Source: Hordeum vulgare subsp. vulgare
Taxonomy: Eukaryota > Streptophyta > Magnoliopsida > Poales > Poaceae
NCBI RefSeq assembly: GCF_904849725.1
Contig: NW_025422533.1
Span: 1-64,000, forward strand
Direction of reading: 5' to 3'
Length of the DNA stretch: 64,000 nt
Shown: piece after piece, positions 1 to 64,000 of the stretch
How positions within the stretch are numbered: position 1 is the stretch's first letter
Layout of the letters: each line of letters starts with the position of its first letter
Translations under genes and position numbers: made by a program
Notes under the pieces: generated by a model
The model's database searches: none
What the model saw: only the letters and a program-made list of their open reading frames with translations
Told to the model about the DNA's origin: nothing

Positions 1-626
1 TGGCTCCATAACTAGCAATGACCATAAATAACCTAGCAAACTACATAAACCATCTTGTGAAATTCAATTGGTTTGCCAATGCTCCATTAATTTATGTAAA
101 TTCAATTGGTTTACATAAACATCTTGTGAAATTCAAATTCATGATTTTTTTTAATTTGTGAATATTTTTTTGGATCCGTACACTTTACGGAATTTCACAT
201 TTTTTGTGTAATTCATGAACATGTTTTGAATTCACATTTATTTAGTTACACCAACATTTTTTGAATATCAGAATATTTTCTTGAACATTTTTAAGTCCCC
301 AAATATTTTTGAATTTCATGACAAGAATTTTAAGTTTGTGACCATTTTCTGAATTTGCAAAAGACTTGAATTTTTCATGCTAGAATAAACTTGAATTTGT
401 AATATTAAAGCAAAACTGACTTAAATAAAAAACCGACCAGAATAAACAACACCAAAACAACAAAAAATAAAAGAAAAAAGTGCGTCCAGGAGCCTTAGTT
501 GTCCTTTGCTTTTTGAGGAGGTTGCCGCTCGCTAGGGGGGTGACGCGTGCCTCCTTTCACTGTGGTGGGTTAGGCCCATGAATGTGCGCCCTAACTCCTA
601 ACTGATGCTAGACGGACGATTTCTTA

Positions 627-650
627 ATATATACATACATACATACATAT

Positions 651-683
<33 letters not shown>

Positions 684-687
684 AACA
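627..687. repeat. Microsatellite (TACA)n / (AC)n
   Basis: Tandem TACA units run into an AC run. The second copy is at 57566-57626. The flanking 100-450 is AT-rich with recurring degenerate TTGAATTT and TTCATGAA words and no recognisable gene. Confidence 0.9.
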
Positions 688-925
688 CAAAAAGAGGGCA
701 AGTTTATCTCCAAAAATGAAAAAGGAAAACCAAAACTAAAGGAAGGCAAGTGATGTCTGAAAATGATAACGTGGGTCTAGGAGTTCAAAGTTGTTTGAGT
801 AACACAAAGAATCATTGTGCTATTTCATTGGCGCACACATGGATCACCGGGCCCCTTTGTTGGAGTAGAACACCAGATTGGGCTTTCATTTATTGTTGGG
901 CTCGCTCGTATAATACCGGGCCCCC

Positions 926-1330
926 ATGTTTGGTGGTGGGGTGGGGTGGGGTGTGGCTTCTAGGTTTCACTTATTGCAAGACCAAGTAACACCTCACCTT
1001 TATCTAAAAACAAATATAGAACACATCACCTCAAGGGTCTACGTATTGTGCAACGCTGAGCACACCACCGCCTTAAGCGTCTACATGTGTACAAACGTAG
1101 TTAGGTACGCTACCGTTACGTATTGTTTCTCTCTCTCATTGTTGTTATCTTGCACGACACCATCGTCAGAGGACGAGAGAGATGACTTGGAGAACTTCCA
1201 GTTCCTCTACAATGGTGTCTTGGTGGAGCTGGAACACCACCGAAACAGGATCCAAACATTCCTCCAAGCTCTCACCGAAGGATCGAGAACTGAGAAGCTC
1301 TCACAACCAACTCCAAGAAGATCTTGTTGA
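926..1330 (+). other. Unrecognised open frame
   Basis: A 134-codon open frame whose last third (from about 1150) has a more protein-like composition, with acidic then charged helical residues (SSEDERDDLENFQFLYNG and following). I recognise no domain and see no upstream exon or splice signals that would make it a gene. It may be a chance frame or a decayed exon. The identical frame in the second copy (57865-58269) adds no evolutionary support, since the two copies are essentially one sequence. Confidence 0.2.
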
Positions 1331-1568
1331 GTACCATTGGCTACGATATAGCACTTGATTTTTTGTGCCTTCACCGTGTTTTATTTGGATTCACATTCCT
1401 CTCTACCACATGTTGTGTTCGGATTTGAATGGTAAAGTTTGAAAACATTCAATTTGATATGTACTTCAATTTTCAAGCTTCAAATAAATATGTTGTGATA
1501 ATATATGTTCAAATGTAGTTTTTATGCAAACATTTGGATAAGAATTAACAAAAAATATATATTGTTTA

Positions 1569-1690
1569 TGGGCTAGATGAAGAAAACTTTAATTCCTAAA
1601 CATGATGAATGAAATTATGGGGGATTGGGTAGATGAAAAAAAAGTTTAATTCCTGAGAAAAATGAGGAACTAAATTATGGGTGATGGGCT
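1569..1690. repeat. Diverged ~56-bp tandem duplication
   Basis: Two adjacent units share GGGTAGATGAA, TTTAATTCCT and AAATTATGGG words (about 1569-1622 and 1625-1681). A GGGCTAGAGATGCC word follows that resembles the ends of the Harbinger-type elements seen elsewhere in the window. Confidence 0.6.
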
Positions 1691-1900
1691 AGAGATGCCT
1701 TTAGCAGACCAAACATCTTTAGCATGCTTATGGTGGTTATATTTGAAAACCATTTAAAAGCTCTTGGACATTTGAAACAAAACATGAATAAGCAGGGAAG
1801 CGTTGCATAAATGAAACAGCCCACACAACTCGGCAAAAAAGAAACAAAAAAAAGAAACAGCCCACACAAGTAAGAGATCGGGATTTGGACAACAGAAACA

Positions 1901-1974
1901 GCTTTCATAGCTCAGTTGGTTAGAGCACCCGTTTAGTAAGCGGGAGGTCTTGAGTTCAACTCTCAATGAAAGCA
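1901..1974 (+). tRNA. tRNA-Thr (anticodon AGU)
   Basis: This 74-base gene folds as a complete cloverleaf. The acceptor stem GCTTTCA (1901-1907) pairs perfectly with TGAAAGC (1967-1973), followed by discriminator A. The D arm holds the A box TAGCTCAGTTGGTTAGAGC, the anticodon loop is TTAGTAA between CCCGT and GCGGG, giving AGU, and the T arm TTGAG-TTCAACT-CTCAA holds the B box. No intron is present. The product decodes ACU/ACC threonine codons after A34 is converted to inosine. The sequence is of the nuclear type, not one of the plastid trnT genes. A T-run follows as Pol III terminator. Confidence 0.96.
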
Positions 1975-3508
1975 TTCGTTTTCCTTTTTGGCACACAGCA
2001 ACAAACAGCTCCTACTTGTCATGGTTCTTGGGTCTGGCTTCCTGGGGCCTCGATCAAAGTTCTACACTGTGTAGTAGTAGTAGTAGGTTTCATGTCCGAA
2101 AGTTTTACCGCATTTACACTGTGTAGTTGTTCATTTCATTGGTCTTTTATGTGATGAAGGCCGGCAAATGCGCTCTAGGCGCTGTTTCCCTGATGCAACC
2201 TCATTACTCTTTTCTGATGACAGGAAATTAAGCGGAAGTGCCGAAACCCGAAAGAGCAGAGGCCCAAGACCATCGAGAGAAACCCACAATGATCGGATGA
2301 ATGAATGAACGAACATGTTTTATTTGGCTTGGGAATTAGTTTGCTTTGCCTAGCTTGAAACGAACGCTTCCAGGAATGCTCAATAATCATGCCATAGCTT
2401 CCGCTGCTAGACTTAATCCCTTTTGGCTGACAAGTTGAGCATGCACACCGCATAGTCTCCAATCCAAGCCCCCCTCCAGTGATTCAATTTATTTTTATTA
2501 CTACTAATATTAGGTCGAGCCAAGAAGTACTGTGGTAGGTGAAGCTCAAATATCAACCCATATACATAACGGCCAGCATTTGATCGAGCAACCAGTCTAC
2601 GGAATAGGCTTGATATATTTCATCTAGTTACAATTGTATTGCTGGTCCGCATGTGGAGTCATTTAGCTGGAATGGCCACTAATCCATTGGTCATTGTCCT
2701 TGTCGGGCATGTGAGGCATTGGGATCTTTTCTTTAAGACACACACGGTATGTTTGGATTCAGATTCACGCGAGCTCAATCATCATAGAGCGATGATTCAG
2801 TCTAGACTGGAAACACAGTACACACTAGTACAAAGAATGGCGCACCTTGGAGCACTAAACATGCATTTAGTCCTTGGAGCACTAAACATGCATTTAGTCA
2901 TAGAGCGATGATTTAGTCTAAACTTGATTCAGTGTACAAGGCGGTATGTTCCCTGCTTATGGAATGTGCATATGAACATCGAATGGAACAAGATCATGTA
3001 AGTGAGAAAACCCGAGGTAAAAGGTCGGTGTTCGTATGACTCTCAGTGAGTGTGAGGACCAAGGGACGTGACGATGATGAACTCCGATGGCCCATACCTG
3101 AATTCCCATGGTTAATACAAATTTCTTTCTTTATGCTGGGACAGCTATATGTTGCTCTACAGAGAGTGGTGGTGGAAACTTGAGACACCAAACTACAATT
3201 TGGCAAAGATATTGTTAAAGCAATATGTATGAGGAATAAGACTGTTGCCATTGTTCAACCTTTCTATTTAGCCTTGTTGGAAATCCATCTTAAAACTGAA
3301 GGACCTTTGTATGGCTAGTATGAAAAAATACAATTGAGGTTGGTGATGTTGCTTGGTCGGGTAAAGACTCACTTAATGGTCATGCATCTTTATGCGATTA
3401 ATTCCCTCAGCTATTTAATCTTTGCAATGATCCTGATTGTACATTATTATTTCGGTTCAATAAGATTAAAGCAACAACTTTGTTCAGAAGATGGCTTACC
3501 TCTGATGT
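1975..3508. other. Intergenic stretch with a paralogue of the LINE target region
   Basis: No supported gene. Bases 2582-2800 resemble 43611-43636 joined to 49143-49330 (shared words GCATGTGAGGCATTGGGATCT and GCGAGCTCAA), so this is a diverged relative of the site where the full-length LINE inserted. At 2847-2898 a 26-base unit beginning TTGGAGCACTAAACATGC is present twice in tandem. Two words beginning CATAGAGCGATGATT flank it (about 2783 and 2899). Confidence 0.6.
1979..1989 (+). terminator. RNA polymerase III terminator of tRNA-Thr
   Basis: TTTT at 1979-1982, backed up by TTTTT at 1985-1989, starts five bases after the discriminator base of the tRNA. This is the usual Pol III stop signal and spacing. 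Confidence 0.8.
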
Positions 3509-3520
3509 CCTTGACCAATG

Positions 3521-3609
3521 CCATTTTTTTTAGAAAAGGAGGTTAAACCCCCGACCTCTGCATCAATTAATGCATGTAGCCATCTTATTAATTATTCCAC
3601 AAAGGTCTA
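3521..3609 (-). mobile_element. 89-bp non-LTR retro-insertion with 12-bp TSD
   Basis: CCTTGACCAATG occurs at 3509-3520 and again at 3610-3621, flanking an 89-base insert. Read on the minus strand, the insert ends in GATGCAGAGGTCGGGGG, CCTCCTTTTCT and an A-run, the same 3' tail as the elements at 3843-5164 and 35339-35396. It is therefore a severely 5'-truncated copy of that retroelement family. The duplicate copy is at 60460-60548. Confidence 0.85.
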
Positions 3610-3842
3610 CCTTGACCAATGACATGAAGTTGATGTCTATGTTGATGATTTACATCTTAGCTCTAACGTTGATATTGTTGTCTGGGTATCAACAAGAATG
3701 GTTAGTATGCAAAATATACATGTACGGATGGCTAGAAGAACAAATGATGCCTGCGTGCAAAGGTTTCGGGTTGGCCGGACAAACTCCTTGATGGCGGCTA
3801 AGCGACAAACGATACAAGATGGTTCCTAGATGAAATTACAGA

Positions 3843-5164
3843 GCCCATGCTCATCTGTCACCTAATCTGAGTCCCCCGCGTCGGCCCCGCTAGGGCGACT
3901 CGGGCGGCGCCCAAACCCAAGCCGTCGGAGGCGCGCGCTCCCTCCTTCATTCCCTCTGTCGTCGTCGGGGCACGCCGCCGGGCAACACTCAGGGGGCGAC
4001 TACGGTGGCAGAGGCATCCCTCTCTCACACGTCTCCACGGGTGGTGCGGGGCCCCTGAACGCGCGGAGGCATGGCCGACCTGTGGAGCGACGGCGATGGT
4101 TGCGTCGACGTCGGCGGTGGTCGTCCCTGCCTCGGGCAACGGTGGTTGCAGGCACATCGGCTAGCCGGTCATGGGCAGCGGCGTGCGGCGGCTGGCCTGG
4201 TTCGGGTGGCAGCGACTGGCTATGCTGCGGCGGCGCGTCACCTGGCTTCAGATCAGCGGCGGTGTCGAGTGTCTGGTGAATTGTTCGGTGGCCTCGGATC
4301 AGATCTATTCTGGGCGGTGCTGCCGGTAGTGGCGGTCATCTCCTCTGTCGGAGGTAGTCGGCCTGAGGCTGGGTGGTTGGATCTCGCGATCCGTCATCTA
4401 GTCCCGGCTGCGAGTCAGGAAGACATAGTTCCCGGTGAAAACCGAGCCGATGACAGACGATGACGGAGTTCTGTGTCGTTACTTTGATGAAGGCATCGTC
4501 TTGTAACTACTGTTGACCCACTCGTGATGCTTAGGGGGAAACCCCAAGATCTGATCGTCGGATGATGGCGGCACTACGGTGTCGTGCCTCTTTTGGGAGC
4601 ATCGTTTCTGGAGCAGCACTGGATGACGGAGGAAGGCGGTGGAGCGGCTTCGTCTTGATCGGAGCTTCGGTGGAGATGTCAAGTCATGCCTGGCCGACAG
4701 GTATTACGCTGTATCATGCCTGCTCGGCAGGTGCTACGCACGACAGATCTTTCGGAGCATTCATTTCAGGATGGACGAGCGCAGGGCGGTGGCGCTGTTG
4801 GGCGCCGTGGTGGCGTCGACGGATGGACGGACTGGCAAGGGTGATACGGATCTCTCTCCTGAAGATGGGAAAGTGGTTCGATGAGGATGACGGCTTCTAA
4901 AACGTGTGCAAGTGGTATACGATTTAGGTTTGCTGCACCGTTTGTTGTTCCGATACGTTATGGGGATGGATCGATGATGACAACGGTTTTTGAAGAGTGA
5001 GAGCACTCAACATTATCATGTTTGTAGGTGTGAATGGCGGCTTCAGGTGGCTTGATGTATGATTTTGTCAGACCTTTATGGAATAATTAATAAAAATAAT
5101 TGTATGCATCGATTGATGCAGAGGCCGGGGTTTGAACCTCTTTTTCTAAAAATAAATAAAAAAG
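3843..5164 (+). mobile_element. 1.3 kb non-LTR retroelement with 15-bp TSD
   Basis: AGATGAAATTACAGA is present perfectly at 3828-3842 and 5165-5179. The insert ends in GATGCAGAGGCCGGGGTTTG and an A-rich tail (5138-5163), so it went in by target-primed reverse transcription on the plus strand. A diverged paralogue at 25701-25740 reads straight across the junction without the insert. The body is GC-rich in its first half (3870-4480). It has open frames of 112-130 codons (4071-4463, 4562-4900), but I recognise no reverse transcriptase or endonuclease. It is thus a non-autonomous or 5'-truncated element that would need a LINE in trans. Confidence 0.85.
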
Positions 5165-5179
5165 AGATGAAATTACAGA

Positions 5180-5401
5180 CTAGTTACATTCTGGTTTTCA
5201 TAGAAACTCCTTTTTCTGAAGGTGTATTGGTAAATCGTCACTGTCCAGGTCATAGCTTTCAAACCTCATATTTGGTTGCATTATCTCCTTAATTATTACA
5301 ATAATGTAAAAGACTCCCAAAAAATTACACAAGTAATTTAGGTATCACTGGCTCCATAGTACAAACAGAATACAAGAGCTGGATAGCTTTCCTATCCACA
5401 G
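5180..5401. repeat. Background segment with a paralogue at 25720-25951
   Basis: From CTAGTTACATTC through ATAGCTTTCC this matches 25728-25940 with scattered substitutions. Shared blocks include CTCATATTTGGTTGCATTAT and AGTAATTTAGGTATCACTGG. I recognise no coding content. It is the downstream flank of the retroelement at 3843-5164. Confidence 0.85.
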
Positions 5402-5466
5402 TTTTTCGAAAAGGAGGTTCAAATCCTCAGTCTCTGTATAAATCGATGCATACAGTTATACTAAAG
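5402..5466 (-). mobile_element. Short retroelement 3' tail
   Basis: Plus-strand TTTTTCGAAAAGGAGG followed by CCTCAGTCTCTGTA and ATCGATGCATACAG is the reverse complement of the same 3' tail seen at 3521 and 35339. The paralogue at 25951 lacks it. I could not identify a clear TSD. 5467-5880 holds nothing I recognise, apart from a repeated GGTGTCAAAACATT at 5790 and 5818. Confidence 0.55.
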
Positions 5467-6462
5467 TCATACTCGGAATGTTTAGTATCATTGTCCAATT
5501 CTTCACTTATGTTCTTTTTAGAACGAGGGCACCGCTTCGTGTAGACATTACGAAGATCTGACGGTGGACATCAAAAGTGGCCAGCCAACAAATAGAATCA
5601 GCTTTTTCTTTTCCTTTTTTGAGAGAGATTTATTACTTATCTTCTTAAACTAATTTTGTTTAACTAAGATAGTCTTCATATTCAGGATATATGTGGTCCG
5701 TGCACTTGGCAATGTGGCAAGATCAGCTTCGGCTGCATGCCTGTTGTGTGGGTTTTTCCGGCAGCCACTTAATGCGATTGGTGGTTAAATGGTGTCAAAA
5801 CATTGTATTTCCGTTATGGTGTCAAAACATTTAATGTGGCCACTTAATGTTTAGAGAGGGAAAGGGAAAAAAGCGAGTTCGGGACAATATCAGGAAACCC
5901 ACCGTTCATGCCTGTCATCAGGAACACAGACTGCGGGGTGAAAACCTGATATTATCCAAAACTACGCAACAAAGATCAAAAGTATTACACTGCCATGTAC
6001 CAACACCACTACCAGGAGCCCCACAACAACCATCACCGAACCAGGCTCACAAAAGAGCACAGAAATAAAACGAAAAGTTTTCACCAATTCGGACATAGAG
6101 CCTAAACATCACCATGGAAACCAAGCCATCAGCACCGCAACCAGCAAAGTTTATCACCAAGGGGGGGGGGGGAATCGAACATCTCCTTCCTGCATTTACC
6201 ATTCATCCCAGACTTCTTCTTCACCAGCCTGCTCGCTCGCTTCTGGCCTTGGTGGTCCACACAGCCGCAGCATTTGAGCTGCGCTCTTTTTCAGCAACTG
6301 AGCTCCCTTCTTGACATTCTCTGCCATCGCCGGTTTCTGCATACCTGCCCAGTATTCAATAAACGCACACGTTGTGAAGGCAATTTCGAAAGGAGTTTTA
6401 ATCCACTTTCTTTTCAAAAGTAGCCTGATTCCGAGCCAACCAAATAGACCAGCAAACTACAA

Positions 6463-9400
6463 CTAAGCCAACATTATAGATCTCGCATAAGCCTGGCAAA
6501 AAAGCATACGACAAGAGAAAACCTGCCAAATTGTTTTCGGAATATAACTGGTACCAAAAACAGCACCAACCGTTCTCCAAACAATCTTGGCCACAGAGCA
6601 CCCAAAGAACAGATGTTGCGCCGATTCAAGTTCATCATAGAAAGAACATTTAGGATCTCCCTGCCACTGTCGTTTTCTCATATTATCTCTAGTAAGAATG
6701 GAGTTTTGAAATAGCTGCCACAGGAAGATTTGAATCTTCAAAGGAATTTTAGTCCCCCAAATCCACTTATAATGGGCCCCCGCAAGATTTTTTTCTAACC
6801 ATCTATACATAGATTTAGTGGAATATTCTCTGGAGTTATCTAATCTCCAGTAAACCTCATCATCTTCATCTGCACAAATTTTATCCAACACACATTGCTT
6901 CATTTCATCCCATTTCTGAAGCATAGCTGGAGATAACCTTCTCCTAAAAGAAGTTAGATGATTCATACTCTCCAGTTTATCCATAGTACACTCCTTATCT
7001 AGGCAAATTTCAAAAAGATCAGGATATTTATCTTTAAGAAGGATATTCTCACCCAAATCATCTAGCCAAAGGCTAGCAATGTTACCTTTTTAAGCACCAC
7101 CCCTCTCCAGCCATGTAATGCTCCTTAACTTTCAAAATATTTTTCCAACACGGGGAATCAGTAGCTTTCTGCTAAACCTTAGCCACAGATGTTCTTCTAA
7201 GGTACTTAGCTTTCACAATATCTTACCATAATCCCTTCTTCTTCTCCAACTTCCACCACCATTTAGCTAGCAAGCTGATATTCTGTTTCCTTAAATCTTT
7301 AACCCCCAGACCCCCCTTTGCTTTAGATCTACAAACACGGGTCCATTTCACCATATGATACCCTTTTCTCCCTTTGCGGTGCCAAAAGAATTTTCTTCTA
7401 GGTTTGTCCCATTTTTCCAGCGTAGATTTTTTTATCAAAGCCATGGACATATAGTATGAGGGAATATGAGATAACACCGCATTAACTTTAATTAGTCTAC
7501 CCCCACTGGACAAAGATTCACTAATCCAGGATTCCCCATGACTAATAAACTTGTCATCAACAAAAAGCCAGTCACTGCATTTAAGCCCAGCATAATTAAC
7601 AGGCATACCCAGGTACTTAATAGGAAAAGCCCCAATGTCACAATTGAACATATCAGCATAATTCCTCATAGTATCATCATCCACACCAACTGAGAAAATC
7701 TCACTCTTCACAAAGTTGATTTTCAAACCAGACATAATCTCAAAGAGATAAAGCAACAGTTTAATATTCAAAGCATTACTAACATTGTCTTCAAAGCATA
7801 GGATAGTATCATCCGCGTACTGAAGAATTGCTACCCCGTTTTCCACTAAGTCCGCCGCTAACCCAGTAAACAGGCCATTCTCCTATGCTTTCAGGACCAT
7901 CTTAGTAAGATAATCAGCAGCTAGATTAAAGAGGAAAGGGGACAAGGGATCACCCTGTCTCACTCCCTTAGCACTCTGGAAATATTCTCCCACCTCATCA
8001 TTCAACTTCACGCTAATGGTACCACCTACCAGAATTCTCCTAATCCAATCAATCCAACGCGGGTCAAAATTTCTTTTGCTATGACAATCCAACAGGAATT
8101 CCCAGTTAACTTTATCATATGCTTTTTTCAAAGTCAAGTTTAAGGACAATCCCTTTTTTCTTCTGAGCATAAGTATGATGTAGAATCTCGTGCAGTGACA
8201 TGATCCCGTCCATAATATCTCTATTTTTGATAAAGGCATTCTGATGTCGACTAAACAAGATGTCTACATGGGGTTCTAATCTGATAGTCAGCACCTTGGT
8301 AATCAACTTGTAAATACACCTTAGCAAGCAAATAGGTCTGAACTGTTGCATTTTATCAGCTCCGGCTACTTTAGGTAACAGTGTTATTATACCATAGTTG
8401 ATTCTCTCCACATCGAGATTATTTTCATGAAACCATTTAAAAAGTGACATCACATCTTCCTTAACAACATCCTAGCAGGATTGAAAAAATTCAATTGGGA
8501 TATTATCAGGTCCAGGGGCCGTGTTATGTTTCATTAAGAACAAAGCATTTTTAACTTCTGTATCCGAAAAAGGCCTAAGTAAGAGAAAATTCTCAATATC
8601 TCCCAATTTCTCTTTATCATCCCACATATTCCCATCTATCTTACATAGGTTTCCAGGAGCAGGGCCAAAAAGATCTTTATAAAAATCAGTAGCATGTTTA
8701 AGCATGTTCTTATTCCCTTCTATTATCATATCCCCGCAACTACGAGAGATGATAGTATTTCTCCTTCTCCTCCCATTCACCATCCTATGAAAATATTCAG
8801 TGCTACTATCACCCTTTAGCAACCAATTGTCATGTGATTTCTGTAGCCAAGCTACCTCCTCTTCCATCAGTAAGCTATTTAATTCTACCAGCATCTCCAC
8901 TTTTTTGCAATAAAGCTCAGGGCTCAAAGTATCATTTTCTTGCAACTCCTCAATATGCCCTAATTCCTCCCTCAACCACTTTCTTCTCTTCCTGGCTTGA
9001 CCAAAATTATTTGAGTCCCACCCTTTAAAATACTTTTTGAATCTCTTCAATTTGATATTCATGATATCAATAGGATTACCAGAATATACAGGTTGCATCC
9101 AGATTTTAGCCACTAAAGTATTAAAATCAGGTTTGCTCAACCAATTCAGATCAAATCTGAATTCCCTCTTTCCAAAATTAATGGGAATATTATCATCAGT
9201 ATTAAGAATCAGGGGACAGTGGTCCGAAATCTCTCTAATAATCTTCCTAACAAAAGTAAAAGGAAACAGATGTTCCCAGGATTTGGACATGAAAACTCTA
9301 TCCAGTTTCTCCAAAGTAGGATTCTGTTGATTATTAGACCAGGTATAAATGCCACCACTCATATCCTCCTCCCGCAAGGAAAGAGCATTAATAATGGAAT

Positions 9401-39922: not shown

Positions 39923-40345
39923 TAACAAGTATGCAAGCTCCAACAATCCTTCTATGAACTGGAGCAAGCATCTCGGAGTTGGAGTATATGCTTTGATGAG
40001 ATTATCCAGGCTTTTGGGTTTATACAAAGTTTATGAGAAACTTGTATTTTCAAAAAAGTGAGTGGTAGCACTATAGAATTGCTTATGAGTATATGTGGTT
40101 GAAATATTGTTGATCGGAAATGATGTAGAATTTCTGGAAAGCATATAAGGTTGTTTGAAAAGTGTTTTTCAAAGGTAAACCTAGATTGAGCGACTTGACC
40201 ATTGAGCATCCAGATCTATAGAGATAGATCAAAGCGCTTGATAAAACTTTCAATGAATACATACCGTGACAAGATTTTGAAGGACTTCAAAATAGATCGG
40301 TCAAAGAAGGAGTTCTTGGTTGTGTTGTAAGGTCAAAGAAGGACT
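39923..40345 (+). pseudogene. Copia reverse-transcriptase remnant
   Basis: Codons from 39930 read in pieces as a Copia RT: NNPSMNWSKHLG, then FDEIIQAFGFIQS, ETCIFKKVSGST, and after a frame change YVVEILLIGNDVEFLESI. Further on come RSKRLI-like and KEFL-like words. The catalytic YVDD box is YVVE. At least one frameshift and several stops are present. The fragment abuts the LTR directly, without gag, protease or integrase, so it results from an internal deletion or a nested insertion. Confidence 0.75.
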
Positions 40346-40529
40346 TCAACATTGTCCATAAATATGAAAATTACTCACAATTGGCAATTATAAGTCATAG
40401 AAAACGTTTCAAACAGAAAAATCTTTGGAGTGGGCCGGCCCATGTAGGCATCTCCTATTACGCTCTGGACATTGAAAAAAGATGCAGCACACCTACTTGG
40501 GCCGGCCCATGCGTGGCCGCCTGTTCTTT

Positions 40530-49157: not shown

Positions 49158-49464
49158 TGGGTTGATGTTTTTCATGGAGACAGGACACACCAGTCATTTA
49201 GCAAGGCCACTAAATTGGCTGTCGTTTAGGCATGTGAGGCATTGGGATCTGTTCAGTAACAAAGATGAGCTCTTCTGCAGCTGTATGATTCAAATTCGTG
49301 CGAGCTCAAATTTCACATAGTGATGTTTTGTCTACAGTATTGTTAAATGCTTTAGTTGTCCCATTAAGTTGTGAATGACAATCAGAAGGATAATAGTGGC
49401 ATATACGGGCAAATCATCAAGGAGATCAAGTTGAGAGCTCTCAATGTAATTGTATTTTTCATTT
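49158..49464. other. Background flank of LINE 2, paralogous to 2610-2830
   Basis: It shares GCATGTGAGGCATTGGGATCT and CGTGCGAGCTCAA with the region at 2709-2778. No gene recognised. Confidence 0.6.
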
Positions 49465-50101: not shown

Positions 50102-52500
50102 CTTTTTTTGATATTTCATACATGTCAATGAATAAAAACATCTAATACTTATTAGTTTTCATATTGTCAAAAACAAAGGACCATATCCGAAAGTGTGTCT
50201 GGATTTATAGAAGATAACCCATAACTTTTGTACAATAAGGAATGCGTCGAAGCTACAAACATGTCTAGGTATAAGTAATTGTAGAAAAAATATACGGAAT
50301 ATCGTTTTTCTCAAAACTTTGCCTGATTTGGCAATCAGGTGAACATGATCCATTGTTGGCTTTAGTTTAGGCAGACTTCTTAAACTATTGGATACTAGAT
50401 AAAAAATAGTAAATTGGACTATTATATTATGTTTGTAAATTATGCACTTGGCAGTGAGAAAGTAGTACTTACACATACTTTTATTTTTGTAATGTACCCA
50501 CTTGGCGGTGAGAAAGTAGTATTCAGACTTAGTTTTCAATGCGCACATGATTTCTCGAAAATTCTGATGGTGTACCAGATGAACGTTTTGTGTGCTAACA
50601 TACATGCAAACTAATTTTCGTGGACCTTTATAGTTTCGAACAATGTGTCCATTGACTTCAGTTGTATATGTGGTACAATGATGATATTGCTGCCAACCAG
50701 AGTACAAGGCTAGATGTAGTAGATATTTGTTTGTTACATATTAGCTCACTCTCCTCTTGATTATGTTAGATGAGTCAATTCTCTTTTTTAAAAGCACTTA
50801 TGGACGACTCAACAATTCTAGGATTCTCTAAAGGCTAATTATCAGTTGGTCTCAAGATTGTTATCTAGCTGAGTGGCTGCCTTGTTTAATGTCCAATTGG
50901 TTAAAACTAGTAGTTTCAATAATCCGATCTTAATTGAGACCACACAGATGCAATTTTTTTTTCCATATTGGAGCCCTTCTAATGGTTGAAATGAGCTTAC
51001 AGTAGGAATGAAGATTGGTATCTAACCCAATAGAAGTTTATTTTCTGAACATACCCTATGGAGTTTGGCGCTGCTAGGTATCGCTTCTAGCAAGCACTAA
51101 CTTGGTATCACCTACACACATCTGTCGCTCATCTTTGTGTTTGTCCAACCCACTTTTGACGCTCGCCCATGATTCTTCAAACTATGACGTTGGAACTATA
51201 ATTATCTTTTCAGGAAATTTCCAAACATTTTTCTTTACATATCCTAACATATTGTTACTTTTTTTGCAATCATTTAAGAATATATTTAAAAACAGTTGGA
51301 TTGAAGAAATGTTCACGAACTTGCTAAAATGTTCACAAACTAAAAAAGTTCATTCATTTGAATATTTTCCTGATTTTTTTTTAAATTGCAACTTTAAAAT
51401 TTCCATGAATTCAAGAAGTATCTGTGACTTTGAAAAATGTTCATGGATTCAGAAAATGTTCATGAACTCTAAAAATCCTCAAGAATTTTAAAATATAATT
51501 TTGGATTTAGAAAATGTTTATGAATTTAATATATGTTTCATGAATTAAAATTATCCTCACATGACTACAAGAAGAATAAGGTATGATTTAGGACATGAGT
51601 GAGTGTAAATGATTATTGGGGAGGGGGACCAGAAATATCCTCAGGCGGTTGTGGTGGGAGTCATACTCAAAGAGAAATGGCAGGGCCCACTGCAGATCTG
51701 AACGAGGTGGTGTACGTCGCATCTTTTGCAATGCTAGCTCCAGCAGCCCCCCGCGCATCCTTAACCTACGCCCCTACACCCATGCCGTTTTCAGACCCCA
51801 CACTGCCGCCAACCCCCGAGAATACATTCATGGTGTCGCCGCCACCAAGGACAACTTCACCAAAGACGAGGGTTTTGATTTGTTTGGGTGGGATTAGGCA
51901 GGGGGCGAGTGTAGTAGAATCCATTCATCCTCACTCGTCCACTCCACGCGAAGGAGAAACCACTCTGGTGAGGCCGGGGAAACTGTGCCGCGGGCAGCGC
52001 ATGGAAGGGGGATCCAATTTACATAGACAGTGAATGCGGGGAATCGATACTGTATTGCGAGTTTCCCTCTTCACTTGTTCCTGTTTGTCTTCTGCACTTA
52101 TAATTGGTCGTCCTCATTTCCGTGTTATCTTGTTTATGTGCCATGCAATTATTCATATTTATAATTTGGGTGAAATTCTATGAAATCGTCATAGTCAAGT
52201 TATTTGTAAGAAATCAAATGACACCAAGCAAAAGAGTAACTCTGAGGCCCAAGCACTGTAGGGTATATGTCCTTTTCCTTGAAAACACACAAAAATAGTT
52301 CCATTTTTTCATTAAAGGGTGATTTCAAGAGGGCACAAAGTATACAAAAAAATAAAAGCCCACTCAAGGCACAAAAAATAAGATATCCAAAAAAGAGTGA
52401 AATGAACAAATTAATAGAACTAAAACATAAGCAGAACCAGAAAACTGAAATTAAAGTCAAGACGATGTTTATTGTCACTCCATTCACAACAATTTTGCAA
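50102..52500. other. AT-rich intergenic sequence
   Basis: No supported gene. At about 50438-50475 and 50490-50527 a 53-base unit is duplicated (CACTTGGC[AG]GTGAGAAAGTAGTA). 51240-51560 repeats AAAATGTTCATGAA-type words. 51599-52033 is GC-richer with two overlapping frames and no known domain. This region lies downstream of the microRNA cluster (minus strand), so its right part may be the 3' end of that primary transcript. Confidence 0.5.
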
Positions 52501-52526
52501 ATCATAAGGGACAGGAAGGAGCACTT

Positions 52527-52642
52527 ACGAACAATATGTATGGGAGGCATCGGGAAAATTAAGAAACAAATGTTGGACCCTAGTTATAGTGGGACACTGG
52601 TTTGGATCTTCCTTCATGTTCCCATGCCCAATGCTCCTAGAT
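52527..52642 (-). ncRNA. MIR2118: miR2118-family precursor, copy 1 (3'-most)
   Basis: On the minus strand the 5' arm carries the star-type strand GGCATGGGAACATGAAGGAA (within 52608-52629). The 3' arm carries the mature-type 22-mer at 52535-52556, with core CCCGATGCCTCCCATA. A loop of about 51 bases separates them. Arm order, the 22-nt length and the family core GATGCCTCCCAT match MIR2118 precursors of grasses. Two asymmetric mismatches sit mid-duplex, as is usual for this family. The last bases (ACATA for the usual YCCTA) are unusual. Function by family: cleavage of PHAS or NLR transcripts that starts 21-nt phasiRNA production through RDR6 and DCL4. Confidence 0.87.
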
Positions 52643-52749
52643 GCTCATTTTATTCCTCTTCCTGACTTGCCTTCACATCCCCATCATCTAAACCAAAGTG
52701 TGCACTTTTGTTTTGATAATTACGCAAGAAAATAGGAAAGGGAAGGAAT

Positions 52750-52868
52750 ACCTAAGAACAATAGGCATGGGAGGCATCAGGAAAATGCAAAATAATTTCG
52801 GCCCCTAAATTTAGAGGCCAAGAAGTATTGGCTTTCCTCCATGTTCCCATGCCCACTGCTCTGAGATA
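52750..52868 (-). ncRNA. MIR2118: miR2118-family precursor, copy 2
   Basis: This is the best match to the family. The minus-strand 5' arm has GGCATGGGAACATGGAGGAA (within 52832-52853). The 3' arm has the mature-type 22-mer at 52762-52783, beginning TTCCTGATGCCTCCCATG. The loop is 48 bases. The stem extends outward on both sides (GTTCTTAGG below the mature strand). It lies 227 bases from copy 1 and 240 from copy 3, all in the same orientation, so one primary transcript probably carries all three. Confidence 0.92.
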
Positions 52869-52987
52869 CTCATGGCTTCCTTTTCCCTAGTCTCTCTCAA
52901 GGCCTCATGATCTACAACTTTACATACGTTAATTTATCAAGCTTTCAGCATGACCTCACTTCCATGACGTAAAAGGAAGGGTAAGGA

Positions 52988-53112
52988 GAACCTAAGAACA
53001 ATAGGAATGGGAGGAATGGGGAAACACTAAGAGAAATAGCCACCCCTGGTTATAGAGGTGCACACGGATAGCTCGGGGTTTCCTCCATGTTCCCATTCTC
53101 ACCGCTCTTAAA
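52988..53112 (-). ncRNA. MIR2118: miR2118-family precursor, copy 3 (promoter-proximal)
   Basis: The minus-strand 5' arm has GAATGGGAACATGGAGGAAA (within 53079-53100). The 3' arm has the mature-type 22-mer at 53002-53023, with TTCCCCATTCCTCCCATTCC. The CCTCCCAT core is kept, but GATG is replaced by CATT. The star arm has GAATGGG for GCATGGG, which keeps pairing, so the change is compensated. Loop about 55 bases. The altered 5' seed implies other targets. Confidence 0.85.
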
Positions 53113-53190
53113 CTATTTCTTACTCTTTCTACCTCACCTTGAAGGTAGTATGATTCTAAAAATCTGGAGAAAAAAGGTTGAACTTCTGAG

Positions 53191-53198
53191 ATATATAT
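53191..53198 (-). promoter_or_regulatory. Candidate TATA box for the miR2118 transcript
   Basis: Minus-strand CCAATATATATCTCAG lies about 90 bases upstream of the first star strand. A start 25-35 bases downstream (about 53160) would leave a short leader. The call rests on sequence and position only. AT-rich DNA gives such words by chance. Confidence 0.3.
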
Positions 53199-53518
53199 TG
53201 GCATCTTAGGAAGTACTCTAGAGTGTAAATTGTGTGGAATTTTCTGAGCGGAATGCTGAAATCAATGAAACAAACAAATATCTTCATGGTGCGTCATAGT
53301 GTACCAGTGAATGACAGTGGGCCATGGAGTACCTATTGCTAATATGGGCACGTGGATGGAGGATACTGTGGATCTTTTTCTCATGCAGAGCTAAAATAAA
53401 TGGTTTGTCCCTGACCATGAACTTGCAATTACATAGAGTGAAAGGTAATAAACCATATAGTCCTTTCGTATATTTTATAAGAGCAAGGCGAATGAAGAGA
53501 GAATAGTCCATGTGATGA

Positions 53519-53700
53519 AGAGACCATTATGGCCGCAAAGGAAAGAGACCATTATGGCATGCCTTGAACTAACATATAAATATCAAAATAATCCAAGAAA
53601 AGAGACCATTATAATCCAAGAAAATAAATATCAAAATAAGAGACCATTAAGACCGTAAAGGAAAGAGACCATTATGGCATGCCTTGAATTAACATATCAT
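53519..53700. repeat. 120-bp tandem repeat upstream of the miR2118 cluster
   Basis: 53521-53580 recurs at 53641-53700 with five differences (AGACCATTATGG, AAGGAAAGAGACCATTATGG, CATGCCTTGAA). The AGAGACCATTA word occurs five times in all. Confidence 0.9.
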
Positions 53701-54946: not shown

Positions 54947-55103
54947 CTCCCTCTGTTCCAAAATATAAGTAAGGTCTATTATTTGATTTCAGAATCTGTT
55001 CCCAAATGTAAGGCATATTAATTTTTCAGAAGTCAACCTTCTCTATGTTGGACCAAGTTTATAGGAAAATATTAATACACTTTAATTTTGGAAGAGAGGG
55101 GGC
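54947..55103. mobile_element. Stowaway MITE (157 bp), decayed right end
   Basis: The left end CTCCCTCTGTTCCAAAATAT and the right end ATTTTGGAAGAGAGGGGGC are inverted with a few changes. They are flanked by TA at 54945-54946 and 55104-55105. Confidence 0.75.
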
Positions 55104-55261
55104 TACTGTTACAATTTTACCAAGAAGTTATAAGTTTACCCACAAGTTATAATAATCATTGCTAATAGAAACATATACATACCTATATTTGTACTGAATG
55201 TCAAGTCATGGAATTGCATGTATCTGATATGAACAGAGGTGAAACTGAAATCTCACATATA

Positions 55262-56480: not shown

Positions 56481-56938
56481 GCTGAATCCGACAGATCCAT
56501 CCTTCGTGGCGGACGAGAACTTATACTATTCTTAGCCATGTCTGTAGTTAATTATACATGATTAGGAAAACTATTGTTTTGTCCTAATAGAGGTGATATG
56601 GTCCCTTAGATCGTAATAGAGGAATTATAACAGGGTACATACTGCTGAGAGGACAGTTTTATCAAACTAGCTTCCTCAGGGGAGGAGAGACTACCAAAGT
56701 TGAGACAGAATATATAGGACTCAATCGCCATATATTCATTTTTTTTTCTCGAAATACACCAAAATGTGTAATCCTTTTCCCGTTTTTAAAGTTTTCCTAG
56801 TTGTAGTCCCTTAATATAAATCAGGATTATAAAGCGTGTATAAAAAAACCAGAAAATATTTTCCAAAATTCGAATGATTAATTGAATATTGTTTGTCACT
56901 GCTCCAAGATATTGCATACGATTGTTTTGTATTAAGAA
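56481..56938. other. Spacer before the right copy of the duplication
   Basis: AT-rich, no gene. Its end at 56938 is only where the visible match with base 1 begins. The true junction cannot be seen, because the left copy is cut by the window start. Confidence 0.6.
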
Positions 56939-57589
56939 TGGCTCCATAACTAGCAATGACCATAAATAACCTAGCAAACTACATAAACCATCTTGTGAAA
57001 TTCAATTGGTTTGCCAATGCTCCATTAATTTATGTAAATTCAATTGGTTTACATAAACCATCTTGTGAAATTCAAATTCATGATTTTTTTTAATTTGTGA
57101 ATATTTTTTTGGATCCGTACACTTTACGGAATTTCACATTTTTTGTGTAATTCATGAACATGTTTTGAATTCACATTTATTTAGTTACACCAACATTTTT
57201 TGAATATCAGAATATTTTCTTGAACATTTTTAAGTCCCCAAATATTTTTGAATTTCATGACAAGAATTTTAAGTTTGTGACCATTTTCTGAATTTGCAAA
57301 AGACTTGAATTTTTCATGCTAGAATAAACTTGAATTTGTAATATTAAAGCAAAACTGACTTAAATAAAAAACCGACCAGAATAAACAACACCAAAACAAC
57401 AAAAAATAAAAGAAAAAAGTGCGTCCAGGAGCCTTAGTTGTCCTTTGCTTTTTGAGGAGGTTGCCGCTCGCTAGGGGGGTGACGCGTGCCTCCTTTCACT
57501 GTGGTGGGTTAGGCCCATGAATGTGCGCCCTAACTCCTAACTGATGCTAGACGGACGATTTCTTAATATATACATACATACATACATAT

Positions 57590-57622
<33 letters not shown>

Positions 57623-58839
57623 AACACAAAAAGAGGGCAAGTTTATCTCCAAAAATGAAAAAGGAAAACCAAAACTAAAGGAAGGCAAGTGATGTCTGAA
57701 AATGATAACGTGGGTCTAGGAGTTCAAAGTTGTTTGAGTAACACAAAGAATCATTGTGCTATTTCATTGGCGCACACATGGATCACCGGGCCCCTTTGTT
57801 GGAGTAGAACACCAGATTGGGCTTTCATTTATTGTTGGGCTCGCTCGTATAATACCGGGCCCCCATGTTTGGTGGTGGGGTGGGGTGGGGTGTGGCTTCT
57901 AGGTTTCACTTATTGCAAGACCAAGTAACACCTCACCTTTATCTAAAAACAAATATAGAACACATCACCTCAAGGGTCTACGTATTGTGCAACGCTGAGC
58001 ACACCACCGCCTTAAGCGTCTACATGTGTACAAACGTAGTTAGGTACGCTACCGTTACGTATTGTTTCTCTCTCTCATTGTTGTTATCTTGCACGACACC
58101 ATCGTCAGAGGACGAGAGAGATGACTTGGAGAACTTCCAGTTCCTCTACAATGGTGTCTTGGTGGAGCTGGAACACCACCGAAACAGGATCCAAACATTC
58201 CTCCAAGCTCTCACCGAAGGATCGAGAACTGAGAAGCTCTCACAACCAACTCCAAGAAGATCTTGTTGAGTACCATTGGCTACGATATAGCACTTGATTT
58301 TTGTGCCTTCACCGTGTTTTATTTGGATTCACATTCCTCTCTACCACATGTTGTGTTCGGATTTGAATGGTAAAGTTTGAAAACATTCAATTTGATATGT
58401 ACTTCAATTTTCAAGCTTCAAATAAATATGTTGTGATAATATATGTTCAAATGTAGTTTTTATGCAAACATTTGGATAAGAATTAACAAAAAATATATAT
58501 TGTTTATGGGCTAGATGAAGAAAACTTTAATTCCTAAAACATGATGAATGAAATTATGGGGGATTGGGTAGATGAAAAAAAAGTTTAATTCCTGAGAAAA
58601 ATGAGGAACTAAATTATGGGTGATGGGCTAGAGATGCCTTTAGCAGACCAAACATCTTTAGCATGCTTATGGTGGTTATATTTGAAAACCATTTAAAAGC
58701 TCTTGGACATTTGAAACAAAACATGAATAAGCAGGGAAGCGTTGCATAAATGAAACAGCCCACACAACTCGGCAAAAAAGAAACAAAAAAAAGAAACAGC
58801 CCACACAAGTAAGAGATCGGGATTTGGACAACAGAAACA

Positions 58840-58913
58840 GCTTTCATAGCTCAGTTGGTTAGAGCACCCGTTTAGTAAGCGGGAGGTCTTGAGTTCAACT
58901 CTCAATGAAAGCA
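58840..58913 (+). tRNA. tRNA-Thr (anticodon AGU), second copy
   Basis: Identical base for base to the tRNA at 1901-1974, lying in the right copy of the duplication. Acceptor, D, anticodon and T arms are all intact, and the T-run terminator is kept. If the duplication is an assembly artefact this is the same gene counted twice. Confidence 0.95.
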
Positions 58914-60781
58914 TTCGTTTTCCTTTTTGGCACACAGCAACAAACAGCTCCTACTTGTCATGGTTCTTGGGTCTGGCTTCCTGGGGCCTCGATCAAAGTT
59001 CTACACTGTGTAGTAGTAGTAGTAGGTTTCATGTCCGAAAGTTTTACCGCATTTACACTGTGTAGTTGTTCATTTCATTGGTCTTTTATGTGATGAAGGC
59101 CGGCAAATGCGCTCTAGGCGCTGTTTCCCTGATGCAACCTCATTACTCTTTTCTGATGACAGGAAATTAAGCGGAAGTGCCGAAACCCGAAAGAGCAGAG
59201 GCCCAAGACCATCGAGAGAAACCCACAATGATCGGATGAATGAATGAACGAACATGTTTTATTTGGCTTGGGAATTAGTTTGCTTTGCCTAGCTTGAAAC
59301 GAACGCTTCCAGGAATGCTCAATAATCATGCCATAGCTTCCGCTGCTAGACTTAATCCCTTTTGGCTGACAAGTTGAGCATGCACACCGCATAGTCTCCA
59401 ATCCAAGCCCCCCTCCAGTGATTCAATTTATTTTTATTACTACTAATATTAGGTCGAGCCAAGAAGTACTGTGGTAGGTGAAGCTCAAATATCAACCCAT
59501 ATACATAACGGCCAGCATTTGATCGAGCAACCAGTCTACGGAATAGGCTTGATATATTTCATCTAGTTACAATTGTATTGCTGGTCCGCATGTGGAGTCA
59601 TTTAGCTGGAATGGCCACTAATCCATTGGTCATTGTCCTTGTCGGGCATGTGAGGCATTGGGATCTTTTCTTTAAGACACACACGGTATGTTTGGATTCA
59701 GATTCACGCGAGCTCAATCATCATAGAGCGATGATTCAGTCTAGACTGGAAACACAGTACACACTAGTACAAAGAATGGCGCACCTTGGAGCACTAAACA
59801 TGCATTTAGTCCTTGGAGCACTAAACATGCATTTAGTCATAGAGCGATGATTTAGTCTAAACTTGATTCAGTGTACAAGGCGGTATGTTCCCTGCTTATG
59901 GAATGTGCATATGAACATCGAATGGAACAAGATCATGTAAGTGAGAAAACCCGAGGTAAAAGGTCGGTGTTCGTATGACTCTCAGTGAGTGTGAGGACCA
60001 AGGGACGTGACGATGATGAACTCCGATGGCCCATACCTGAATTCCCATGGTTAATACAAATTTCTTTCTTTATGCTGGGACAGCTATATGTTGCTCTACA
60101 GAGAGTGGTGGTGGAAACTTGAGACACCAAACTACAATTTGGCAAAGATATTGTTAAAGCAATATGTATGAGGAATAAGACTGTTGCCATTGTTCAACCT
60201 TTCTATTTAGCCTTGTTGGAAATCCATCTTAAAACTGAAGGACCTTTGTATGGCTAGTATGAAAAAATACAATTGAGGTTGGTGATGTTGCTTGGTCGGG
60301 TAAAGACTCACTTAATGGTCATGCATCTTTATGCGATTAATTCCCTCAGCTATTTAATCTTTGCAATGATCCTGATTGTACATTATTATTTCGGTTCAAT
60401 AAGATTAAAGCAACAACTTTGTTCAGAAGATGGCTTACCTCTGATGTCCTTGACCAATGCCATTTTTTTTAGAAAAGGAGGTTAAACCCCCGACCTCTGC
60501 ATCAATTAATGCATGTAGCCATCTTATTAATTATTCCACAAAGGTCTACCTTGACCAATGACATGAAGTTGATGTCTATGTTGATGATTTACATCTTAGC
60601 TCTAACGTTGATATTGTTGTCTGGGTATCAACAAGAATGGTTAGTATGCAAAATATACATGTACGGATGGCTAGAAGAACAAATGATGCCTGCGTGCAAA
60701 GGTTTCGGGTTGGCCGGACAAACTCCTTGATGGCGGCTAAGCGACAAACGATACAAGATGGTTCCTAGATGAAATTACAGA

Positions 60782-62103
60782 GCCCATGCTCATCTGTCAC
60801 CTAATCTGAGTCCCCCGCGTCGGCCCCGCTAGGGCGACTCGGGCGGCGCCCAAACCCAAGCCGTCGGAGGCGCGCGCTCCCTCCTTCATTCCCTCTGTCG
60901 TCGTCGGGGCACGCCGCCGGGCAACACTCAGGGGGCGACTACGGTGGCAGAGGCATCCCTCTCTCACACGTCTCCACGGGTGGTGCGGGGCCCCTGAACG
61001 CGCGGAGGCATGGCCGACCTGTGGAGCGACGGCGATGGTTGCGTCGACGTCGGCGGTGGTCGTCCCTGCCTCGGGCAACGGTGGTTGCAGGCACATCGGC
61101 TAGCCGGTCATGGGCAGCGGCGTGCGGCGGCTGGCCTGGTTCGGGTGGCAGCGACTGGCTATGCTGCGGCGGCGCGTCACCTGGCTTCAGATCAGCGGCG
61201 GTGTCGAGTGTCTGGTGAATTGTTCGGTGGCCTCGGATCAGATCTATTCTGGGCGGTGCTGCCGGTAGTGGCGGTCATCTCCTCTGTCGGAGGTAGTCGG
61301 CCTGAGGCTGGGTGGTTGGATCTCGCGATCCGTCATCTAGTCCCGGCTGCGAGTCAGGAAGACATAGTTCCCGGTGAAAACCGAGCCGATGACAGACGAT
61401 GACGGAGTTCTGTGTCGTTACTTTGATGAAGGCATCGTCTTGTAACTACTGTTGACCCACTCGTGATGCTTAGGGGGAAACCCCAAGATCTGATCGTCGG
61501 ATGATGGCGGCACTACGGTGTCGTGCCTCTTTTGGGAGCATCGTTTCTGGAGCAGCACTGGATGACGGAGGAAGGCGGTGGAGCGGCTTCGTCTTGATCG
61601 GAGCTTCGGTGGAGATGTCAAGTCATGCCTGGCCGACAGGTATTACGCTGTATCATGCCTGCTCGGCAGGTGCTACGCACGACAGATCTTTCGGAGCATT
61701 CATTTCAGGATGGACGAGCGCAGGGCGGTGGCGCTGTTGGGCGCCGTGGTGGCGTCGACGGATGGACGGACTGGCAAGGGTGATACGGATCTCTCTCCTG
61801 AAGATGGGAAAGTGGTTCGATGAGGATGACGGCTTCTAAAACGTGTGCAAGTGGTATACGATTTAGGTTTGCTGCACCGTTTGTTGTTCCGATACGTTAT
61901 GGGGATGGATCGATGATGACAACGGTTTTTGAAGAGTGAGAGCACTCAACATTATCATGTTTGTAGGTGTGAATGGCGGCTTCAGGTGGCTTGATGTATG
62001 ATTTTGTCAGACCTTTATGGAATAATTAATAAAAATAATTGTATGCATCGATTGATGCAGAGGCCGGGGTTTGAACCTCTTTTTCTAAAAATAAATAAAA
62101 AAG
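60782..62103 (+). mobile_element. 1.3 kb non-LTR retroelement, duplicate copy
   Basis: Same element and same 15-bp TSD as 3843-5164, in the right copy of the duplication. I see no difference between the two copies. Confidence 0.85.
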
Positions 62104-62818
62104 AGATGAAATTACAGACTAGTTACATTCTGGTTTTCATAGAAACTCCTTTTTCTGAAGGTGTATTGGTAAATCGTCACTGTCCAGGTCATAGCTTTCA
62201 AACCTCATATTTGGTTGCATTATCTCCTTAATTATTACAATAATGTAAAAGACTCCCAAAAAATTACACAAGTAATTTAGGTATCACTGGCTCCATAGTA
62301 CAAACAGAATACAAGAGCTGGATAGCTTTCCTATCCACAGTTTTTCGAAAAGGAGGTTCAAATCCTCAGTCTCTGTATAAATCGATGCATACAGTTATAC
62401 TAAAGTCATACTCGGAATGTTTAGTATCATTGTCCAATTCTTCACTTATGTTCTTTTTAGAACGAGGGCACCGCTTCGTGTAGACATTACGAAGATCTGA
62501 CGGTGGACATCAAAAGTGGCCAGCCAACAAATAGAATCAGCTTTTTCTTTTCCTTTTTTGAGAGAGATTTATTACTTATCTTCTTAAACTAATTTTGTTT
62601 AACTAAGATAGTCTTCATATTCAGGATATATGTGGTCCGTGCACTTGGCAATGTGGCAAGATCAGCTTCGGCTGCATGCCTGTTGTGTGGGTTTTTCCGG
62701 CAGCCACTTAATGCGATTGGTGGTTAAATGGTGTCAAAACATTGTATTTCCGTTATGGTGTCAAAACATTTAATGTGGCCACTTAATGTTTAGAGAGGGA
62801 AAGGGAAAAAAGCGAGTT

Positions 62819-64000
62819 CGGGACAATATCAGGAAACCCACCGTTCATGCCTGTCATCAGGAACACAGACTGCGGGGTGAAAACCTGATATTATCCAAAA
62901 CTACGCAACAAAGATCAAAAGTATTACACTGCCATGTACCAACACCACTACCAGGAGCCCCACAACAACCATCACCGAACCAGGCTCACAAAAGAGCACA
63001 GAAATAAAACGAAAAGTTTTCACCAATTCGGACATAGAGCCTAAACATCACCATGGAAACCAAGCCATCAGCACCGCAACCAGCAAAGTTTATCACCAAG
63101 GGGGGGGGGGAATCGAACATCTCCTTCCTGCATTTACCATTCATCCCAGACTTCTTCTTCACCAGCCTGCTCGCTCGCTTCTGGCCTTGGTGGTCCACAC
63201 AGCCGCAGCATTTGAGCTGCGCTCTTTTTCAGCAACTGAGCTCCCTTCTTGACATTCTCTGCCATCGCCGGTTTCTGCATACCTGCCCAGTATTCAATAA
63301 ACGCACACGTTGTGAAGGCAATTTCGAAAGGAGTTTTAATCCACTTTCTTTTCAAAAGTAGCCTGATTCCGAGCCAACCAAATAGACCAGCAAACTACAA
63401 CTAAGCCAACATTATAGATCTCGCATAAGCCTGGCAAAAAAGCATACGACAAGAGAAAACCTGCCAAATTGTTTTCGGAATATAACTGGTACCAAAAACA
63501 GCACCAACCGTTCTCCAAACAATCTTGGCCACAGAGCACCCAAAGAACAGATGTTGCGCCGATTCAAGTTCATCATAGAAAGAACATTTAGGATCTCCCT
63601 GCCACTGTCGTTTTCTCATATTATCTCTAGTAAGAATGGAGTTTTGAAATAGCTGCCACAGGAAGATTTGAATCTTCAAAGGAATTTTAGTCCCCCAAAT
63701 CCACTTATAATGGGCCCCCGCAAGATTTTTTTCTAACCATCTATACATAGATTTAGTGGAATATTCTCTGGAGTTATCTAATCTCCAGTAAACCTCATCA
63801 TCTTCATCTGCACAAATTTTATCCAACACACATTGCTTCATTTCATCCCATTTCTGAAGCATAGCTGGAGATAACCTTCTCCTAAAAGAAGTTAGATGAT
63901 TCATACTCTCCAGTTTATCCATAGTACACTCCTTATCTAGGCAAATTTCAAAAAGATCAGGATATTTATCTTTAAGAAGGATATTCTCACCCAAATCATC
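62819..64000 (-). mobile_element. LINE 1, duplicate copy, cut by the window edge
   Basis: Same sequence as about 5880-7062, including the zf-RVT frame (63401-63994). The G-run at 63100-63110 is one base shorter than in the left copy. The rest of the element would lie beyond the window end. Confidence 0.85.

Follow-up and report, generated by a model that had tools for sequence, protein, structure and literature searches.

A three-hairpin MIR2118 cluster and putative target-like loci within a recent 57-kb tandem array of the barley genome

The window analysed here, a stretch of 64,000 nucleotides, comprises bases 1-64000 of an unplaced barley contig (C47, 132,872 bp). The assembly (4.21 Gb, 180 contigs) looks like MorexV3, which we take it to be; contig C2 would then be chromosome 2H. 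The window contains a genuine cluster of three MIR2118 precursors on the minus strand (Table 1), named here u3, u2 and u1 in the order in which they would be transcribed. All three exceed the curated gathering score of the Rfam covariance model RF01911 (98.9-115.3 bits vs 85), and their membership in the family is solid. The layout proposed in the original prediction was largely recovered: each hairpin has a 22-nt mature-type strand on the 3' arm, CCTCCCAT is common to all three of these strands, the loops measure 50 (u1), 48 (u2) and 53 nt (u3) from arm to arm, within the expected 48-55 bases, and the same hairpin-to-hairpin spacing of 227 and 240 nt was found. The star-type motif ascribed to the 5' arms, GGCATGGGAACATGNAGGAA, is exact in two of the three hairpins, while the 5'-most one has GAATGGGAACATGGAGGAA instead. 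At E ≤ 1 the window contains no fourth miR2118 hairpin besides mirror matches on the plus strand over the same stretches (48.4, 42.1 and 28.2 bits, all below gathering), which arise because the stem is palindromic.

Table 1. Features of the 64,000-nt window (coordinates are those of the window)
Feature	Position	Strand	Evidence or remark
u3, hairpin 1 in transcription order, MIR2118 precursor	52967..53137	-	RF01911 98.9 bits, E 1.3e-18
u2, hairpin 2, best MIR2118 precursor	52727..52891	-	RF01911 115.3 bits, E 1.3e-22
u1, hairpin 3, weakest MIR2118 precursor	52500..52666	-	RF01911 102.4 bits, E 1.9e-19
u3 mature-type strand	53002-53023	-	TTCCCCATTCCTCCCATTCCTA
u2 mature strand	52762-52783	-	TTCCTGATGCCTCCCATGCCTA; 5' arm 52832-52853
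u1 mature-type strand	52535-52556	-	TTCCCGATGCCTCCCATACATA
Upstream block, possible promoter and 5' part of primary transcript	53138..53515	-	aligns at same position at C5 and C7 clusters
Target-like site, candidate 21-PHAS locus	49227..49248	+	TAGGCATGTGAGGCATTGGGAT; best family score 2.0, u2 4.0
Second target-like site	2704..2725	+	CGGGCATGTGAGGCATTGGGAT; best family score 3.5, u2 5.5
Next-unit copy of 2704 site	59643..59664	+	inside repeat 56939-64000
Weaker target-like site	29785-29806	+	best score 4.5; shares GGGAT with the others, flanks unrelated
LINE	about 43806-49045	-	Pfam: RT, zf-RVT, RNase H-like, endonuclease, DUF4283/CCHC
LINE-type pieces	6463-7882		Pfam
DUF4283 and Transposase_24, weak matches	10704-12560 and 16370-17479		below cut-offs
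Tandem-period repeat	1..7062	.	matches 56939-64000: 0 mismatches, 4 gap openings
Neighbouring-unit copy of 1-7062	56939..64000	.	0 mismatches, 4 gap openings
Unit junction of 57-kb array	40333..40348	.	outer C2 array edges map to 40333 and 40348

The members of the trio are unequal in quality: both the fold z-scores and the numbers of unpaired bases differ among them. Relative to dinucleotide shuffles, the z-score is -7.54 for u2 and -3.72 for u3 (0/200 shuffles fold as well in either case) and -2.68 for u1 (3/200), and the predicted folds leave 3/22 mature bases unpaired in u2, 4/22 in u3 and 6/22 in u1. The usual limit for a miRNA duplex is five mismatches. Judged by these predicted folds, u2 is an excellent precursor and u3 an acceptable one, while u1 appears doubtful as a miRNA gene because its six unpaired mature bases exceed this limit. 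The cores of all three fold better than their shuffles, and a stable stem with a paired miRNA/star duplex is clear for u2 and u3. A known mature sequence is matched by one of the three hairpins: the u2 strand is identical at 22/22 positions to zma-miR2118d as given for maize (PMC3749131), and the sugarcane pair sof-miR-Seq501 carries the same strand (PMC3464620), while the main text of the papers searched contains no match to the u1 and u3 strings. The trio shares with the grass MIR2118 family (RF01911; zma-miR2118d) the precursor layout, the mature strand on the 3' arm, the 22-nt length, the 5'-UU and the occurrence in clustered copies, but differs in that it sits inside a near-identical 57-kb array.

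Hairpins were collected from 31 of the loci L001-L038 scanned with Rfam, the remainder overlapping those scanned. At least 63 distinct places in the barley assembly score above the RF01911 gathering threshold with the array counted once, a lower bound that leaves out further matched places in the genome. Compensatory change across these relatives supports the MIR2118 helix: in the alignment of the 63 hairpins (A1, helix from RNAalifold), 72 cells are changed on both sides of a pair vs 20.8 in shuffles (0/500 as high), and 11/23 pairs show such changes vs 7.9 in shuffles (6/500 as high). Controls with the helix slid along the alignment give 4-28 cells, a lenient comparison since the helix was derived from the same alignment. 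A MIR2118 hairpin of 88.4 bits at C2:16021996-16022157 (L037) lies about 1 Mb from the array. Its mature-type strand is shorter by one base, and the 3.2 kb around it contain no other hairpin above the gathering score.

Relatives covering nearly the whole length of the 681-bp cluster occur on C5 (82%) and C7 (77%), and the tree of the 63 hairpins joins u3 with its C5 counterpart (support 100/100), u2 with its C7 and C5 counterparts (100/99) and u1 with its C7 and C5 counterparts (99/92). Since every hairpin resembles the one at the corresponding position on C5 and/or C7 more than it resembles the adjacent hairpins, the trio is, on the evidence of this tree, old and predates the split of the C2/C47, C5 and C7 loci. 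The regular spacing had been read as tandem duplication of one unit; the duplication within the trio is ancient, and a recent one was rejected as the trio's origin on the basis of the tree and of the repeat copies, which are only 67-75% alike.

Conservation differs among the hairpins, and it bears on the possibility that the cluster is a decaying relic in which u2 alone, or none of the three, makes a miRNA, its amplification being neutral hitch-hiking in a duplication-prone region. We would give this an appreciable chance, though one clearly below even. The mature strand of u1 retains 19/22 positions on C7 and 17/22 on C5, little better than the spacers (68-78%), and that of u3 retains 19/22 on C5 and 12/22 on C7. 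Only two hairpins of the C7 locus score over gathering, the degenerate counterpart of u3 not being among them. The same reading would accommodate the upstream block, which is conserved no better than the spacers, several older pieces of this region, already diverged, in the right flank of the array, and the dozens of other family members in the genome. It fits poorly, however, with the mature strand of u2, which is unchanged on C7 (22/22) and nearly so on C5 (20/22) while its loop retains 30/48 and 38/48 positions, and with the C5 locus, where the trio layout is kept and all three hairpins score over gathering, as on C2.

The upstream block contains a TATA-like TTATAAAATA near 53480-53471. Its identity to the C5 and C7 loci, 68-73% in the first 300 bp, is no higher than that of the spacers; it therefore attests homology, not constraint, and conservation of the block was set aside as promoter evidence. 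The block may nevertheless act as a promoter, and the hairpin spacing makes it plausible that the three hairpins share a primary transcript starting near 53.4 kb. The C2 copy carries about 160 bp extra around 53517-53690.

The surroundings are, as first described, rich in transposons, with a LINE and other transposon-type domains in the window. There are 67 stop-to-stop ORFs of at least 120 aa; Pfam was run on 19 of them and on one shorter ORF, and 7/20 matched, all to transposon-type domains and three below cut-off. A host protein gene may be present among the remaining 48 ORFs. The presumed 5' end of the LINE, at about 49130, lies about 100 bp from the site at 49227.

A scan of the window for miR2118 target-like sites was carried out with a set of 40 different 22-nt mature strings taken from the barley genome, using a purpose-written script (mismatch 1, G:U 0.5, doubled at positions 2-13) rather than the tool of PMC8368212. 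Besides the hairpins' own antisense it returned the sites at 49227, 2704/59643 and 29785 (Table 1). With the best family member, scores ≤4 were obtained at 49227 and 2704/59643; 12 Markov resamples of the window gave 0 matches at ≤4 and 2 at ≤5. The site at 29785 was dropped from the set as weak, two of the 12 resamples also reaching ≤5. The same scan of the collected genomic loci, with exact mature antisense excluded, yielded 16 rows at ≤4.5, of which 13 lie inside loci chosen for miR2118 clusters and were taken, without checking them one by one, as hairpin arms. Two others lie right of the array (C2:14981872 and C2:14983647, both 4.0, on the same relative strand), and one, C5:8278770 (L095; TAGGCATGGAAGGCATTCGGAA, score 3.5), lies some 8.7 kb away from the cluster on C5 and was the sole match in a rough control comprising 52 kb of L095-L098, L107 and L108.

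The four loci at 49227, 2704, C2:14981872 and C2:14983647 are identical in 20/22 columns of their best window, the 20-nt form of the site being GGCATGTGAGGYATTGGGAT. Three of them (49227, 2704 and C2:14981872) also share flanking sequence (74-80% over 74-129 bp, in two pieces for one pair) and are therefore relatives rather than independent cases. In contrast, the match of C2:14983647 to each of the other three is limited to 23-29 bp, i.e. to the site itself, so that only-site matches occur in three of the six pairs and flank matches in the other three. This is the pattern described in PMC8368212 for 21-PHAS loci, otherwise different transcripts that have the 22-nt trigger site alone in common; the putative barley sites differ in lying in or beside an amplified block with the trigger cluster. 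When 49080-49400 was searched against the genome, 13 matches were obtained, namely the five array copies, seven to the first ~50 bp and one relative (14981809, 74%), and it was non-exhaustive, as the relative at 2704 was missed.

For the four sites u2 scores 4.0, 5.5, 6.0 and 6.0 (49227, 2704 and the two right of the array). The score of ≤4 is reached at 49227 by 11/40 mature variants and at each other site by 1/40; of the family members, the C7 counterpart of u1, TTCCCGATGCCTCACATGCCTA, fits each of the four best. The local mature strands thus fit the target-like sites moderately at best. We regard 49227 and 2704 as candidate miR2118 target-like, PHAS-like loci, and there is a substantial chance, somewhat short of even, that such sites are not PHAS loci at all but what remains of miR2118 hairpins in antisense, or else a motif that serves some other function. 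A mature strand read in antisense does resemble a target site, and a terminal T and a G-to-T change common to the sites have no match in u1, u2 or u3. On the other hand, none of the four loci has a MIR2118 hairpin signal at E ≤ 1, for which reason we rejected the sites as hairpin arms, and C2:14983647 shares nothing beyond 23-29 bp with the others, as PMC8368212 describes for PHAS loci. Two further candidates were discarded: the site at 49227 as part of the adjacent LINE, the seven matches to the presumed LINE end stopping at ~49130, and coding of an NLR P-loop, as the P-loop frame has a TGA stop inside the site (by eye). Pfam gave no match for the ORF at 49114-49320, which is in another frame than the P-loop frame.

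Comparison of the window with the assembly reveals a head-to-tail tandem array with a shared junction and very low divergence, i.e. a recent segmental array. Five copies of the 681-bp cluster occur at 100% identity, three on C2 (spacing 56,942 and 56,971 bp) and two on C47 (56,993 bp). On C2 the array extends from 14,810,031 to 14,980,927 and comprises three units, with both outer edges read. An identical 91 bp spans all four junctions read (the window's own, two others on C2 and one other on C47), which therefore all derive from one event; the junction contains a filler of 14 bp (40334-40347), most of which is also found 20-30 bp away (by eye), and this would be typical of end joining.

For comparison of the units we used seven stretches (12,193 aligned columns), with five units represented in each and six in one; the C47 stretches were assigned by the places of the junctions to units X, Y and Z, and the C2 units are termed a, b and c. 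Over all sampled units we found nine SNVs (13814, 14332, 20338, 20978, 36196, 37215, 45309, 51626 and 52092) and one (AT)n length difference. Against a, b and c, respectively, Y shows 6, 2 and 5 SNVs (12,193 columns), Z shows 3, 3 and 2 (7,011 columns), and X shows one each (6,658 columns). Pairwise divergence is 1.5e-4 to 7.1e-4 in 14/15 pairs, X and Z showing 0 in 1,476 columns; at the grass substitution rate of 1.3e-8 per site and year this corresponds to about 6,000 to 27,000 years. As one SNV or more separates every C47 unit from every C2 unit, the comparison speaks for five or more units with the cluster (15 hairpins) in the assembly, perhaps six units in all, although the case for X as a separate copy is thin, and single SNVs in near-identical repeats may be errors of assembly.

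This count would be too high if the array were shorter than it looks and C47 represented the C2 copies a second time, an assembly artefact that we consider unlikely. C47 is a separate contig of 133 kb, its units are nearly identical to those of C2, with X one SNV from each, and the HiFi reads used for MorexV3, 15-22 kb long, are too short for 57 kb (PMC9241371). The artefact does not readily explain why Y and Z as well as X differ from every C2 unit (Y by 2-6 SNVs, Z by 2-3), and three copies with both outer edges are found within C2 itself. The absence of extended regions of raised read depth, as described in PMC9241371, argues in addition against much further collapse. Among the matches listed from the literature on miR2118 in wheat and barley, on its clusters and their copy number, and on linked loci, no title or beginning of an abstract reports the array, a result that carries little weight.

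Grass miR2118 acts in anthers before meiosis, where its cleavage of non-coding PHAS transcripts starts the production of 21-nt phasiRNAs (PMC7057497). The control of NLR genes, which had also been ascribed to the family, is its role in eudicots; in monocots, according to the same paper, the targets are mostly non-coding transcripts. Deletion of the rice cluster leads to male and female sterility (PMC7305157). The rice chromosome 4 cluster resembles the barley one in containing several clustered hairpins of different mature classes; rice, however, has 18 members at two sites, a deletion of 14 loci (16 kb) causing sterility, whereas in barley a block of three hairpins recurs every 57 kb. In bread wheat, a related cereal, 140 perfect-match miR2118 members have been counted, most of them in clusters, and chr5B shows an additional expansion (PMC7057497). 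This is likewise a lineage-specific growth in the copy number of clustered miR2118, but the counts are of perfect matches to miRBase strings, and no 57-kb unit with linked targets appears in the portion of the paper available. For barley anthers 568 lncRNAs with predicted miR2118 sites have been reported (PMC7835676), so that candidates for the pathway exist in barley and predicted sites are common.

Taken together, these data make it quite probable that an old grass MIR2118 cluster was recently amplified, with putative targets, in a 57-kb array; transcription, processing, cleavage, phasing and an effect of dosage would then be expected along the following lines. One Pol II primary transcript, starting at about 53.4 kb and running along the minus strand, would carry the three hairpins and be processed in a DCL1-type manner into 22-nt miR2118 with a 5'-U, mainly out of u2. 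The 22-mers would then cleave non-coding PHAS transcripts before meiosis in the anthers and trigger 21-nt phasiRNAs, as in the pathway known from the literature. Because the junction is shared, we infer that the tandem array into which the cluster was carried formed by one end-joining event and later grew through unequal exchange. Since the unit holds at least two PHAS-like, target-like loci, the trigger and its putative targets were amplified jointly.

The gene family itself is ordinary and well supported; what seems unusual is a very recent multi-copy block that has the trigger among target-like loci. A bolder reading, which we find doubtful and offer as speculation, is that a single linked locus combines the trigger cluster with several 21-PHAS-type targets and was co-amplified as a 57-kb block to at least five copies in the last ~ten to thirty thousand years, and that its copy number varies among barley lines and sets premeiotic phasiRNA dosage and the robustness of male fertility. 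A recent, near-identical multi-copy array of a miR2118 cluster in a cereal, with putative targets inside the unit, would provide a natural dosage series for testing whether reproductive phasiRNAs depend on the number of trigger copies. These genes would be overlooked or wrongly counted if annotation or read mapping discarded unplaced contigs or reads that map to several places. C47 holds further units, and a window-by-window scan of such contigs would report the same genes repeatedly.

Several minor features accompany the array. To its right, at C2:14983949-14990201, several ~80-94% fragments of window 53849-57026 represent older duplications, and no miR2118 cluster was found among them. At 19443-23734 the window contains tandem arrays of 164, 337, 132 and 83 bp, with hairpins that have sub-threshold MIR5387/MIR7807 scores and look MITE-like by eye. 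Two identical tRNA-Thr (AGT) genes at 1901-1974 and 58840-58913 are the same gene in neighbouring units, and the array therefore multiplies a tRNA gene too.
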